Below, piece after piece: positions 14,884 through 19,067 of a DNA stretch of 42,813 nt. The translations under genes were made by a program, and so were the position numbers. The stretch spans positions 1 to 42,813 of the forward strand of contig QHNB01000094.1 of the NCBI GenBank assembly GCA_003217965.1. The letters are read 5' to 3'. The stretch's first letter is position 1. Each line of letters opens with the position of its first letter. The notes under the pieces were generated by a model that worked only from the letters and a program-made list of their open reading frames with translations, did no database searches and had not been told where the DNA came from. Origin of the DNA: Verrucomicrobiota bacterium (lineage in GTDB: Bacteria; Verrucomicrobiota; Verrucomicrobiia; Chthoniobacterales; UBA10450).

Positions 14884-16317
14884 TCAGTAGCGATAATGCT
14901 CGGACTTGTACGGTCCTTCCACCGGCACGCCGAGGTAATCGGCTTGTGCTTTGGTGAGCCGAGTGAGCTTGACGCCGATCTTGTCCAGGTGAAGGCGAGC
15001 TACTTCTTCATCGAGCTTTTTACTTAGGACATAAACTCCAATTTTGTACTGATCCCTGTTGCGCCATAGATCGAGCTGAGCCAGGACCTGGTTCGAGAAC
15101 GAGTTTGACATAACAAAGCTCGGGTGACCGGTCGCGCATCCGAGATTGACGAGGCGACCTTCAGCCAGAAGGAAGATTTCGTGACCGTCCGGGAAAGTAT
15201 ATTTATCGACCTGCGGTTTGATGTTGGTGCGTTTTACATCCTTCGCGGTATTGAGGGCATCGACCTGAATCTCGTTGTCAAAATGGCCAATGTTAGCCAC
15301 GACAGCCTGATCTTTCATGCGCGCCATATGTGCGAGCGTGATGACATCGATATTGCCCGTGGTGGTCACGTAAATGTCGCCCCAACCTAACGTCTCCTCG
15401 ATGGTTGTGACTTCATAGCCTTCCATGGCCGCCTGCAAAGCGTTAATCGGATCGATCTCCGTGATGACGACGCGGGCTCCCTGGCCGCGCAGTGACTGGG
15501 CACAACCTTTGCCGACGTCACCGTAGCCGCACACAACCGCGACTTTGCCTCCAATCATGACGTCGAGGGCGCGGTTCAATCCATCAATTAAGGAGTGCCG
15601 GCAGCCGTAAAGATTGTCGAACTTCGATTTGGTGACCGAGTCGTTGACGTTGATGGCCGGAACCAGAAGCCGCCCTTCTTGCTGCATTTTGTAAAGGCGA
15701 TGAACTCCAGTCGTTGTTTCTTCGGAGACACCGCGCCATTCCTTAACCAGCTCATGCCAGCGGTAGGGATTCTCCCGATTAATTTCCAGGAGCAGATCTT
15801 TGATAACTTGTTCTTCCTTGTTGCCCGATGGCGACTTCGCCCAATCACGGCCTTCTTCCAGTTCGTAGCCTTTATGAATTAAGAGAGTCGCATCTCCGCC
15901 ATCGTCGACGATGAGTTGCGGACCTTTCCCATCGGCGTGCGAAATTGCGCGATATGTGCACCACCAATATTCTTCCAGGTTTTCGCCTTTCCAGGCGAAG
16001 ACCGACACACCAGCTTTGGCGATGGCGGCAGCGGCGTGATCCTGGGTGGAGAAGATATTGCAGCTGGCCCAGCGCACGGTCGCGCCGAGAGCAACGAGGG
16101 TTTCGATCAGAACCGCGGTTTGAATGGTCATGTGCAGCGATCCGGTCACGCGCACACCCTGGAGCGGCTTCTCCGGCGCATATTTCTCGCGGATGGCCAT
16201 GAGTCCCGGCATTTCCTTTTCCGCAATGGAAATCTCTTTGCGTCCCCAGTTCGCCAGAGAAATGTCGGCGACTTTGTAGTCCTGTTTCGTGTTCGTTTTT
16301 GCAGTTGTTGTACTCAT
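14884..16317 (-). CDS. ahcY: Adenosylhomocysteinase
   Basis: [53 protein letters not shown]-terminal [10 protein letters not shown]. Confidence 0.98.
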
Positions 16318-16324
16318 TGGGTTC

Positions 16325-16744
16325 TCACAAGTAGGCTTCTTCCGCAGATTTCGCAGATTGGCGCAGATTCTCAGAAAAATTTAAGACGGGCCGTTTATAT
16401 TCGAGGCTCTCCGCTCCAAAATTCAGTAGGAGTCCGCGCTGCAAGCCGGTTGCCTTTAATTCGTTGATCAATTGCGCCTCATCCGCGCTCGTCAGCATCG
16501 CGATTGCTTTCGTTTCGACGATTACAGATTCAAAACAGACAAAATCCGCACGATAAGCGTAGGTAAGAAGCTTGCCCTTATAGCGAATCGGCAGCGCAAC
16601 TTCAGTGCTGAAGGGAATTTCTCGGTCCTGAAATTCTAACGCCAGCGCAGTCCGGTAGACGAGCTCGAGAAATCCGCGGCCAAGTTCGCTGTGGACCTCC
16701 ATCGCCGCTCCAATAATGGCGAACGTTTCGGGGTCTTTCTGCAT
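16325..16744 (-). CDS. GxxExxY family protein
   Basis: [24 protein letters not shown] (GFLELVY = GxxExxY), [33 protein letters not shown]. Confidence 0.92.
16343..16369. repeat. Left inverted-repeat cluster flanking the GxxExxY gene (3 x CGCAGATT)
   Basis: cgcagatt at 16343-16350, 16352-16359, 16362-16369. Confidence 0.85.
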
Positions 16745-16748
16745 TTTA

Positions 16749-16765
16749 AATCTGCGAAATCTGCG
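16749..16765. repeat. Right inverted-repeat cluster flanking the GxxExxY gene (2 x AATCTGCG)
   Basis: aatctgcg at 16749-16756 and 16758-16765, reverse complement of the left cluster. Confidence 0.85.
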
Positions 16766-16770
16766 GACTA

Positions 16771-17973
16771 TTACCGCACTGCTTTCTTTAACGCGGCTGC
16801 TTTGTCGGTTTGTTCCCAGGTGATATCGGGATCACCAATCTTGCCGAAGTGACCGTAGTTGGTCGTTTTCGAATAGATGGGGCGAAGGAGATCGAGCTGC
16901 TCGATGATGTCCGCCGGTTTGAAGCTGAAGATTCGCATAATGGCGCGCTGAATCGCTTCTTCTGGGACGCTGCTGGTACAAAAGGTATCAATGTTGACGC
17001 TGACCGGCTCCGGATGCCCAATGGCGTAGGCGAATTGGACCTCGCATTTCCGGGCGAGACCGGAGGCGACGACGTTCTTCGCCACCCAACGGCCCATGTA
17101 GGCTGCGCTCCGGTCGACTTTGCTTGGATCTTTCCCGGAAAATGCGCCGCCGCCATGGCGTCCCATTCCCCCGTAACTATCAACAATGATCTTGCGACCG
17201 GTTAAGCCGGTATCGCCCGAAGGACCACCGATGACGAAACGGCCGGTCGGGTTAATCAGATATTTGGTTGTGCCATTCATCATCGATTTTGGCAGAACCT
17301 TCCGAATCACTTTTTCGACGCAGAACTTTTCGATCTCGGAGTGTTTCACGTCGCCAGTATGCTGGGTCGAGATGACGACGTTCGAAATCCCGATGGGGCG
17401 GCCGTCGTCGTAAATGACGGAAACCTGCGATTTGGCGTCCGGCCGCAACCAGGCAACCTTGCCGCTCTTGCGAATGCGCGTCAGTTCGCGACCAAGGCGA
17501 TGGGCGAACATGATCGGCGCCGGCATCAGCTCGGGCGTCTCATCGCAGGCGTAACCGAACATCAAACCCTGGTCCCCAGCACCCTGCTCGGCCGTTTTTT
17601 TGCCGCGCGCTTTGCGCGCGTCGACGCCTTGGGCGATGTCGTGGGATTGATCAGTGATGACGGTGCTAACAAAAATTTTCTCGGCATGAAAAACATCATC
17701 GTCATGGATGTAACCGATTCCGCGCACGGTATCGCGGACAATCCGATTGATCGGAATGACCGATTCCAGGTGTGTGCCTCTGGGCAAATTGGGAATGGTA
17801 ATCTCGCCGCCGACAATGACGACATTGCTTTTGGCGTAAGTTTCGCAAGCGACCCGGCTGTGTTTATCGCGGGCGAGACAAGCATCGAGAACGGCATCGG
17901 AAATGGTGTCGCAAACCTTATCGGGATGACCTTCGCCGACGGATTCGGAGGAAAAAATGAAGCGACGTGCCAT
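16771..17973 (-). CDS. metK: S-adenosylmethionine synthetase
   Basis: ORF 16771..18051, likely start [19 protein letters not shown] at 17973; [34 protein letters not shown]. Confidence 0.97.
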
Positions 17974-18103: not shown

Positions 18104-18123
18104 ATGATATGTAGATATATCAT
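18104..18123. promoter_or_regulatory. Candidate ArsR/SahR-type operator (palindrome ATGATAT-N6-ATATCAT)
   Basis: atgatatgtagatatatcat; 7-bp perfect arms, 11 bp upstream of the regulator ATG, in the divergent metK/regulator intergenic region. Confidence 0.55.
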
Positions 18124-18134
18124 TTTGGTAGCGG

Positions 18135-19067
18135 ATGCCGTCAACCATTAATTTCCTGCGCACCGTGGCCGATCCGACCCGGCTGCGCCTCATGCTCCTG
18201 CTCGAGCACGATGAACTCTCCGTCGCCGAGCTTCAGGAGATCCTTGGCATGGGACAATCGCGTATTTCCAGTCACCTGGCTCAACTCAAACGGGCCGGCG
18301 CCGTGACCGATCGGCGGGCGGGCAAGAAAGTTTATTACGCCTTGAACAATTCGCAGGGCAACGGCACTCGCGCCCGGGCCCAGGAACTGGTTCACGCCAT
18401 GGCCCGTGAAATTCCGGAGACCAAGCGTGATCGGACAGGGTTGAAGCTGGCATTGCGTAAGCGCCAGGACAAAGCGCGCGAATATTTCGACGAGCTGGCC
18501 GGCAAATTTGGCCGCAGCTATGTCCCCGGTCGGTCTTGGGAGGCCCTCGCCCACACCCTCATTACGTTGTTGCCGGCGATGACCGTGGCCGATCTGGGCG
18601 CGGGCGAAGGCACGCTCTCGCAATTGCTGGCCAAAACCGCGCGCAAAGTGATCGCGGTCGATAATTCGCCAAAGATGGTAGCGTTCGCGTCGCAGCTCGC
18701 GAAAAAGCACGGTCTAAAGAATCTCGAATACCGGCTGGGAGACATGCAGGACCCGCCGATCGCGAAGAATAGCGTCGATCTGGTTATTTTCAGTCAAGCG
18801 CTGCATCATGCCACTCGTCCGGAACGCGCCATTGGTCACGCCCATTCGATTTTAAGGAAGAACGGTCGAATCGTGATTCTCGATCTGCTCAGTCACCGAT
18901 TCGAACGGGCGCGGGAGCTTTACGCCGATCATTGGCTTGGTTTCAGTGAAGTGCAACTGCACGAGTTTCTGGAAAACACGGGATTTAAGAATATCGATGT
19001 CCGCGTGGTGGCGCGGGAAAAGCAAAGCCCAAATTTTCAGACGATTTTTGCTACCGGCGTGAAATAG
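18135..19067 (+). CDS. ArsR-family HTH regulator fused to SAM-dependent methyltransferase-like domain (SahR-like)
   Basis: N-terminal wHTH (FLRTVADPTRLRLMLLLEHDELSVAELQEILGMGQSRISSHLAQLKRAGAVTDRRAGKKVYY), C-terminal methyltransferase (TVADLGAGEGTLSQLLA.. VIAVDNSPKMV). Confidence 0.92.
   Translation: MPSTINFLRTVADPTRLRLMLLLEHDELSVAELQEILGMGQSRISSHLAQLKRAGAVTDRRAGKKVYYALNNSQGNGTRARAQELVHAMAREIPETKRDRTGLKLALRKRQDKAREYFDELAGKFGRSYVPGRSWEALAHTLITLLPAMTVADLGAGEGTLSQLLAKTARKVIAVDNSPKMVAFASQLAKKHGLKNLEYRLGDMQDPPIAKNSVDLVIFSQALHHATRPERAIGHAHSILRKNGRIVILDLLSHRFERARELYADHWLGFSEVQLHEFLENTGFKNIDVRVVAREKQSPNFQTIFATGVK

Follow-up and report, generated by a model that had tools for sequence, protein, structure and literature searches.

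The locus between metK and ahcY described here is, with a probability of about 0.7, a copy of a minimal mobile element with a single gene, whose nuclease product processes the arrays of its own kind. Such an element would be some 430–500 bp long and would end in inverted arrays of 8–10-bp repeats that are matched within each copy, its sole product being a small PD-(D/E)XK nuclease of the Cas4/lambda-exonuclease type. It would insert without target-site duplication, mainly into short junctions between co-directional genes, and the element gene would be expressed by read-through from the host operon. We infer that the protein binds the arms and cuts them, most likely by recognising repeat arrays of its own kind and cleaving at or near these, and that it would mobilise gene-bearing copies together with gene-less hairpin derivatives. 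The chemistry of excision and insertion is likewise put forward as a proposal, in which host repair or the nuclease would join the element to a new junction. Comparison among loci establishes the anatomy of the element, the locus-specific matching of its arms, the presence of empty, deleted and replaced sites, copies bounded by the element ends, derivative hairpins, an orientation bias and an intact active site.

Organisation of the metK–GxxExxY–ahcY locus

The source genome is a 2.64-Mb draft (87% complete, 350 contigs), and the window, i.e. the whole stretch of 42,813 nucleotides that was analysed, is its contig C348. The locus is transcribed from the minus strand in the order metK, GxxExxY, ahcY. 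The upstream, co-oriented neighbour is metK, coding for S-adenosylmethionine synthetase (positions 16771–17973, minus strand), which was assigned by sequence comparison with relatives and from established knowledge. The GxxExxY gene itself (16325–16744, minus strand; TIGR04256/PF13366) encodes a PD-(D/E)XK nuclease-like protein of 139 amino acids, in which GxxE, D and ExK are all present. The downstream gene, again co-oriented (14884–16317, minus strand), we take from established knowledge to be ahcY, coding for adenosylhomocysteinase. Gaps of about 7 and 26 bp, reported in the initial annotation of this DNA, are correct: 7 bp separate the GxxExxY gene from the ahcY start codon (16317) and 26 bp separate it from the metK stop codon (16771).

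The same annotation had placed three CGCAGATT units on one side of the gene and two, in inverted orientation, on the other. These positions were confirmed, with units at 16343, 16352 and 16362 on the plus strand and at 16749 and 16758 on the minus strand. Specifically, the 5' arm, upstream of the gene (16749–16767, minus strand), is composed of two CGCAGATT units at 9-bp spacing, corresponding to TCCGCAGATTTCGCAGATT on the minus strand. The 3' arm (16341–16369, minus strand) is the inverse of the 5' arm and contains three units; it lies downstream of the GxxExxY domain and inside the last codons of the gene, so that the array is within the reading frame and encodes a C-terminal tail. Both arms were aligned with orthologous arms. 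A 17-bp core, claimed to be exact at both ends, is indeed so, and the full exact inverted match is even longer, extending over 19 bp (TCCGCAGATTTCGCAGATT, 16341–16359 versus 16749–16767). From outer arm end to outer arm end, the whole element would span positions 16341–16767 (minus strand, 427 bp), as indicated by the empty and remnant metK–ahcY sites of relatives and, for other copies, by DNA homology between sites that ends at the outer ends of the arms.

The number of CGCAGATT octamers alone is unremarkable, with five in the whole window versus 3.4 expected. The paired-array pattern CGCAGATTNCGCAGATT has no second occurrence in the 2.64-Mb genome, and a scan of the window found no other inverted pair with periodic arms. 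Rfam returned no match near the element. In addition, a short sequence with 7-bp inverted halves, ATGATATGTAGATATATCAT, is located at positions 18104–18123, in the divergent gap between metK and a gene coding for an ArsR-type HTH and SAM-methyltransferase protein (18135–19067, plus strand); it is a candidate operator of the metK–ahcY operon.

Most GxxExxY genes are flanked by inverted arrays specific to each locus

For each locus, the 150 bp upstream were aligned with the 150 bp downstream after reverse complementation of the latter and, as a control, the upstream region of one locus was paired with the downstream region of a different locus. The sample comprised 92 intact GxxExxY domains from the source genome and 57 relatives; the named relatives of this genome are Verrucomicrobia/Chthoniobacterales MAGs. 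The median arm score of the 92 loci was 40, versus 16 for mismatched pairs, with 84% of them lying above the 95th percentile of the control. A score of at least 30 was reached by 86% of the GxxExxY loci versus 1 of 1500 (0.07%) ordinary ORFs of similar size. Matched arms were also found in 27 GxxExxY loci of the wider phylum (median score 35, control 17) and in 56 loci from many phyla, including Verrucomicrobiota, Planctomycetota, Bacteroidota, Patescibacteria, Chloroflexi, Proteobacteria and others (median 35.5, control 16). Arms went undetected at about 14% of the GxxExxY loci among the relatives and at more elsewhere, for example in Sporomusa. When the four-helix-bundle loci described below are included, the relatives provide 162 loci that share 88 junctions, and the loci are therefore not statistically independent. 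The proposal of a small mobile cassette with the repeats as its ends is thus supported and withstood the refuting outcomes that the initial annotation had named, most other GxxExxY loci carrying flanking inverted arrays and related metK–ahcY junctions being frequently empty or occupied by a remnant. The further assumption that CGCAGATT is a feature common to these loci did not hold: as a family-wide motif it was rejected, since the repeats change from junction to junction and each junction has its own.

The arms of GxxExxY loci show a self-period of 8–10 bp in 138 out of 154 cases, and the spacing of repeat units was seen to vary by 1 bp in a 737-kb contig. The median element length is 467 bp for GxxExxY and 455 bp for the four-helix family. 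The source genome contains five GxxExxY copies, one of them frameshifted, near nuoF/nuoG, metK/ahcY, gatB, pcrA/malQ and cdsA/dxr, each with inverted short-repeat arrays of its own. At cdsA/dxr (locus L007) the frameshifted copy adjoins a separate gene-less inverted pair, and both carry GACAGAATGAACAGAAT repeats.

Among orthologous copies, the units are altered in step in both arms. At metK–ahcY the first repeat unit is of the CAC/CAC or the CGC/CGC type, and a similar in-step change distinguishes the CAGGAAA and CTGGAAA types at the nuo junction. Furthermore, arm similarity between copies at different sites increases with protein identity (rho 0.185; none of 300 permutations gave a higher value). 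Together with the missing signal for an RNA stem (see below), the in-step changes and this correlation would fit a protein that recognises the two arms as DNA, although a shared ancestry of the gene and its arms may account for part of the correlation.

The GxxExxY protein is a predicted nuclease with an intact active site

The window protein matched TIGR04256 with an E-value of 3.4e-39 (133.8 bits, cut-off 35) and PF13366 with an E-value of 2.9e-36 (124.8 bits, cut-off 22). At least 92% of the 92 sequences retain the G, E and Y of the name motif and, after these, the D and the ExK. In the wider set, E26, Y29, D66 and K78 are found in 55 of 55 sequences, and the catalytic set E26, D66 and E76-x-K78 is conserved in the same alignment. 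For this protein, searching solved structures by sequence was uninformative. An AlphaFold2 model was obtained with a pLDDT of 90 and a pTM of 0.81; when this model was submitted to Foldseek, the best match was the Cas4 protein SSO0001 (4ic1), accompanied by LHK-Exo, RecE and MGME1, all with moderate TM-scores of 0.4–0.5. The GxxExxY protein thus carries a full PD-(D/E)XK catalytic set on a modelled fold like that of a minimal Cas4/lambda exonuclease, and is a predicted nuclease. The dN/dS values of the metK–ahcY orthologs range from 0.015 to 0.09 in those comparisons that allowed an estimate of dS, which was saturated in most; the intact active site is under purifying selection.

The family was found in 103 of the 195 genomes of the phylum, at up to about 12 copies per genome, and PADLOC gave no match to known defence protein models up to an E-value of 0.1. 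The pcrA/malQ copy of the source genome (L006, 1510–1836) may be catalytically dead, because E-x-R replaces the expected catalytic E-x-K in its sequence; its arms persist.

Empty, deleted and replaced sites argue for mobility

The comparisons in this section rest on draft MAGs. Empty metK–ahcY sites, which the initial annotation had proposed to look for in relatives, are frequent: most relatives have only 2–26 bp between the two genes, eight carry a GxxExxY gene and others carry four-helix genes. One genome with a metK 96% identical to that of the window (G005) holds an internally deleted remnant at this site, which indicates that the GxxExxY gene is expendable. The cvpA-like/gatB junction was observed in even more states, namely empty, with GxxExxY, with four-helix genes, with a four-helix element beside a leftover GxxExxY arm, with an internally deleted four-helix element, and with several gene-less hairpins of differing repeat types.

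Copies at unrelated sites indicate the ends of the element. Loci L278 and L287, which differ in site and flanks, have 500 bp in common at 88% identity, and their homology stops at the outer arm ends, to within 5 bp. The same was seen for other close pairs of copies; more distant pairs retain the gene only. In the phylogenetic tree each junction forms one clade (for metK–ahcY, eight rows with support of 100/96), and nested jumps are visible as a second site inside the gatB clade and as L112 inside the malQ clade. This well-supported grouping by junction implies that the element entered most junctions a single time and was thereafter inherited or lost. Movement is accordingly rare, most copies at a junction descending from one old insertion.

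A search for target-site duplications, also proposed in the initial annotation, found none: 0 of 137 elements had one of at least 4 bp, where 0.7 would be expected by chance. This argues against a classical DDE mechanism. As no duplication is present and the metK–ahcY copies are one clade within the GxxExxY family, the metK–ahcY copy is probably an old insertion, inherited and then lost in some lineages, rather than a recent one.

Gene-less derivatives were also detected. In the 737-kb contig, two gene-bearing inverted pairs exceeded the threshold of the scan, which also picked up four gene-less hairpins (65–98 bp), with 0 hairpins in shuffled DNA. Each of the four has a match among the arms of a GxxExxY copy of its own genome, while the sets of other genomes match two at most. 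Similarly, within the L278 genus, the genome of L278 contains a 106-bp hairpin with the ends of this copy, and isolated ends are found elsewhere. Taken together, comparison of these sites suggests that the elements are mobile. Speaking against this, the family is nearly missing from plasmids (8 of 72,556 records) and is absent from the phage collection searched. At one locus (L373, G027:C25 40861–43864), adjacent junctions show outward-facing CGCGGAT-type arrays, as if successive operon junctions each held a gene-less element.

The co-orientation of the three window genes had been correctly noted; it had also been called odd for the family, and here the opposite is true. Co-orientation with both neighbours is the rule, applying to 47 of 51 scorable GxxExxY loci and to 34 of 38 four-helix loci (81 of 89 copies in all), whereas convergent or divergent neighbours flank two of the four gene-less hairpins of the scanned contig. 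A sense bias of gene-bearing copies versus gene-less hairpins suits selection for being transcribed.

A second, unrelated family shares the architecture

In several relatives, the metK–ahcY junction holds, instead of GxxExxY, a gene of the four-helix-bundle family (TIGR02436, S23/IVP) with its own inverted arrays of 7-bp units. This family is present in 49 of the 58 relatives, frequently in many copies. At 70 such loci the arms are locus-specific and inverted (median score 33.5 versus 16), and 91 of the 116 arms repeat every 7 or 14 bp. We do not claim metK–ahcY as a hot spot, because both families occur at only 3 of the 88 junctions, a number nearly reachable by chance overlap. Something other than the GxxExxY nuclease may move such elements, given that the four-helix family has the same architecture and no nuclease.

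Comparison with known systems and alternative explanations

The 23S rRNA intervening sequences of Salmonella, Leptospira and Coxiella encode the S23p (TIGR02436) four-helix-bundle protein. The window element is like them in size (about 430–450 bp), in its one small sense gene and in its inverted-repeat bounds, and their mobility too is suspected, though unproven. It differs in its protein, an unrelated PD-(D/E)XK nuclease, in its units of 8–10 rather than 7 bp and in its location at an operon junction of protein genes rather than in rRNA. In particular, it lies between metK and ahcY and so not in a 23S rRNA gene, and its gene belongs to TIGR04256 and not to the S23p/four-helix-bundle family, TIGR02436 being found only in the analogous elements of relatives.

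In a different explanation, the element would move or persist by way of RNA. A long stem formed by the arms in the operon transcript would be cut by RNase III, like that of a 23S rRNA intervening sequence, which would make the insertion tolerable, and insertion would proceed via an RNA intermediate into transcripts. The strong sense-orientation bias, the lack of target-site duplications and the unrelated partner family, whose S23/IVP protein is the one encoded by rRNA intervening sequences, are consistent with this explanation. So is the Coxiella 23S rRNA intervening sequence, which has three tandem heptamers (GACAGAT) before its S23 gene and inverted repeats at its bounds, measures 428–444 nt, is sense-oriented and is cut by RNase III (PMC4990558). 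The window element also folds with both arms paired (z -2.0). However, mismatches between arms were G-U versus A-C in 52 versus 75 cases for GxxExxY and in 43 versus 35 for the four-helix family; since G-U is not in excess over A-C, this test gave no signal of selection on an RNA stem. Moreover, no reverse transcriptase is encoded, half of the scanned gene-less hairpins lie outside co-directional junctions, and selection for being transcribed can yield the orientation bias as well. We therefore regard a transcript-based origin as unlikely.

The element is also like REP/REPIN sequences with their RAYT transposases, and MITEs such as ERIC, in being a short intergenic inverted-repeat element with gene-less derivatives beside gene-bearing copies in a genome. 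Unlike these, it lacks a tyrosine (HUH) or DDE transposase, its only gene being that of the PDDEXK_3 protein, and it has multi-unit array ends that vary by copy, with few copies per type. In design, it is comparable to an rRNA intervening sequence or to a MITE family that includes an autonomous copy of its own; it belongs to neither, because the location and the protein are wrong, there is no transposase and there is no duplication.

Recognition of the hairpin arms might instead fall to a third party resident in the genome, such as a REP-associated transposase or a general recombination or replication process, with the GxxExxY and four-helix proteins as unrelated passengers that aid persistence. 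The use of one architecture, and even of the same junctions, by two unrelated proteins would fit, as would the many REP-like palindromes in these genomes. Against this, the period splits cleanly by protein family (8–10 versus 7 bp) and arm sequence tracks the protein, where a single end sequence would be expected if all copies depended on one outside enzyme; we consider this explanation rather improbable. More doubtful still is a domesticated operon gene, inserted long ago and now serving the host or the SAM cycle, for instance as a translationally coupled regulator with the arrays as operators or regulatory RNA stems: the single metK–ahcY clade of 8 genomes in 7 genera, the purifying selection, the CAC/CAC versus CGC/CGC change of the first repeat unit and the end of the gene within or beside the ahcY start agree with it, but the junction is empty or holds an unrelated gene in most relatives, a deleted remnant exists there, and GxxExxY also sits beside nuo, gatB, dxr and malQ genes that have no common theme.

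The reading of a self-mobilising nuclease element, which we prefer, has parallels in homing endonuclease genes and in the Cas4/lambda-exonuclease nucleases nearest to the model, a small nuclease gene being an element of its own. The GxxExxY element is distinct from those families in that it is not in a conserved coding sequence or intron, has its own inverted arrays, has no cas genes and is far smaller than Cas4 or lambda exonuclease. In Beggiatoaceae, TAACTGA heptamer repeats are intergenic, tandem, located near the starts of operon genes and suspected to be mobile (PMC4679880). In contrast to GxxExxY elements, those sets are direct, inverted pairs being virtually absent, and no gene of the GxxExxY or four-helix families is named as linked to them (PMC4679880).

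A literature search that covered neither preprints nor most subscription papers returned no description of such elements, and the mentions of GxxExxY found were not about repeats. The kind of element of about 450 bp described here, widespread and settled between bacterial operon genes, is apparently undescribed. The GxxExxY family is common and has no assigned role, and its packaging with matched inverted arrays gives it a testable one. The matched arrays explain a class of repeats and hairpins inside operons that had gone unrecognised. They also provide a shared framework for the 23S rRNA intervening sequences, the origin of which has been an open question since about 1990. Should the protein cut its own arms, the elements would rank among the smallest DNA elements able to move themselves, and each would carry its own recognition sequence at both ends.

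Evenly balanced, in our view, is the broader proposal of a new general class, consisting of one small gene between inverted short-tandem-repeat arrays and using at least two unrelated drivers, the Cas4-like GxxExxY protein (8–10-bp units) and S23/IVP (7-bp units). The rRNA intervening sequences would then be a special case that landed in rRNA; each driver would recognise its own repeat, so that specificity and arms would co-evolve, giving many independent lineages per genome.

Two minor observations concern the surrounding sequences. The metK genes beside ahcY (L040, L041, L047 and the other metK–ahcY loci) form two groups, about 64–69% and 77–96% identical to the window metK, which suggests an in-place replacement of metK. 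Finally, the contig G020:C14 (loci L199–L235) carries further palindromic repeat families, TGTCATGTCGAGCGAAGTCGAGACATC, TTCTGGGGAGCACAGG, GTAGGGACG and TTGTCGATCTTG, which are REP-like and unrelated to the GxxExxY arms.
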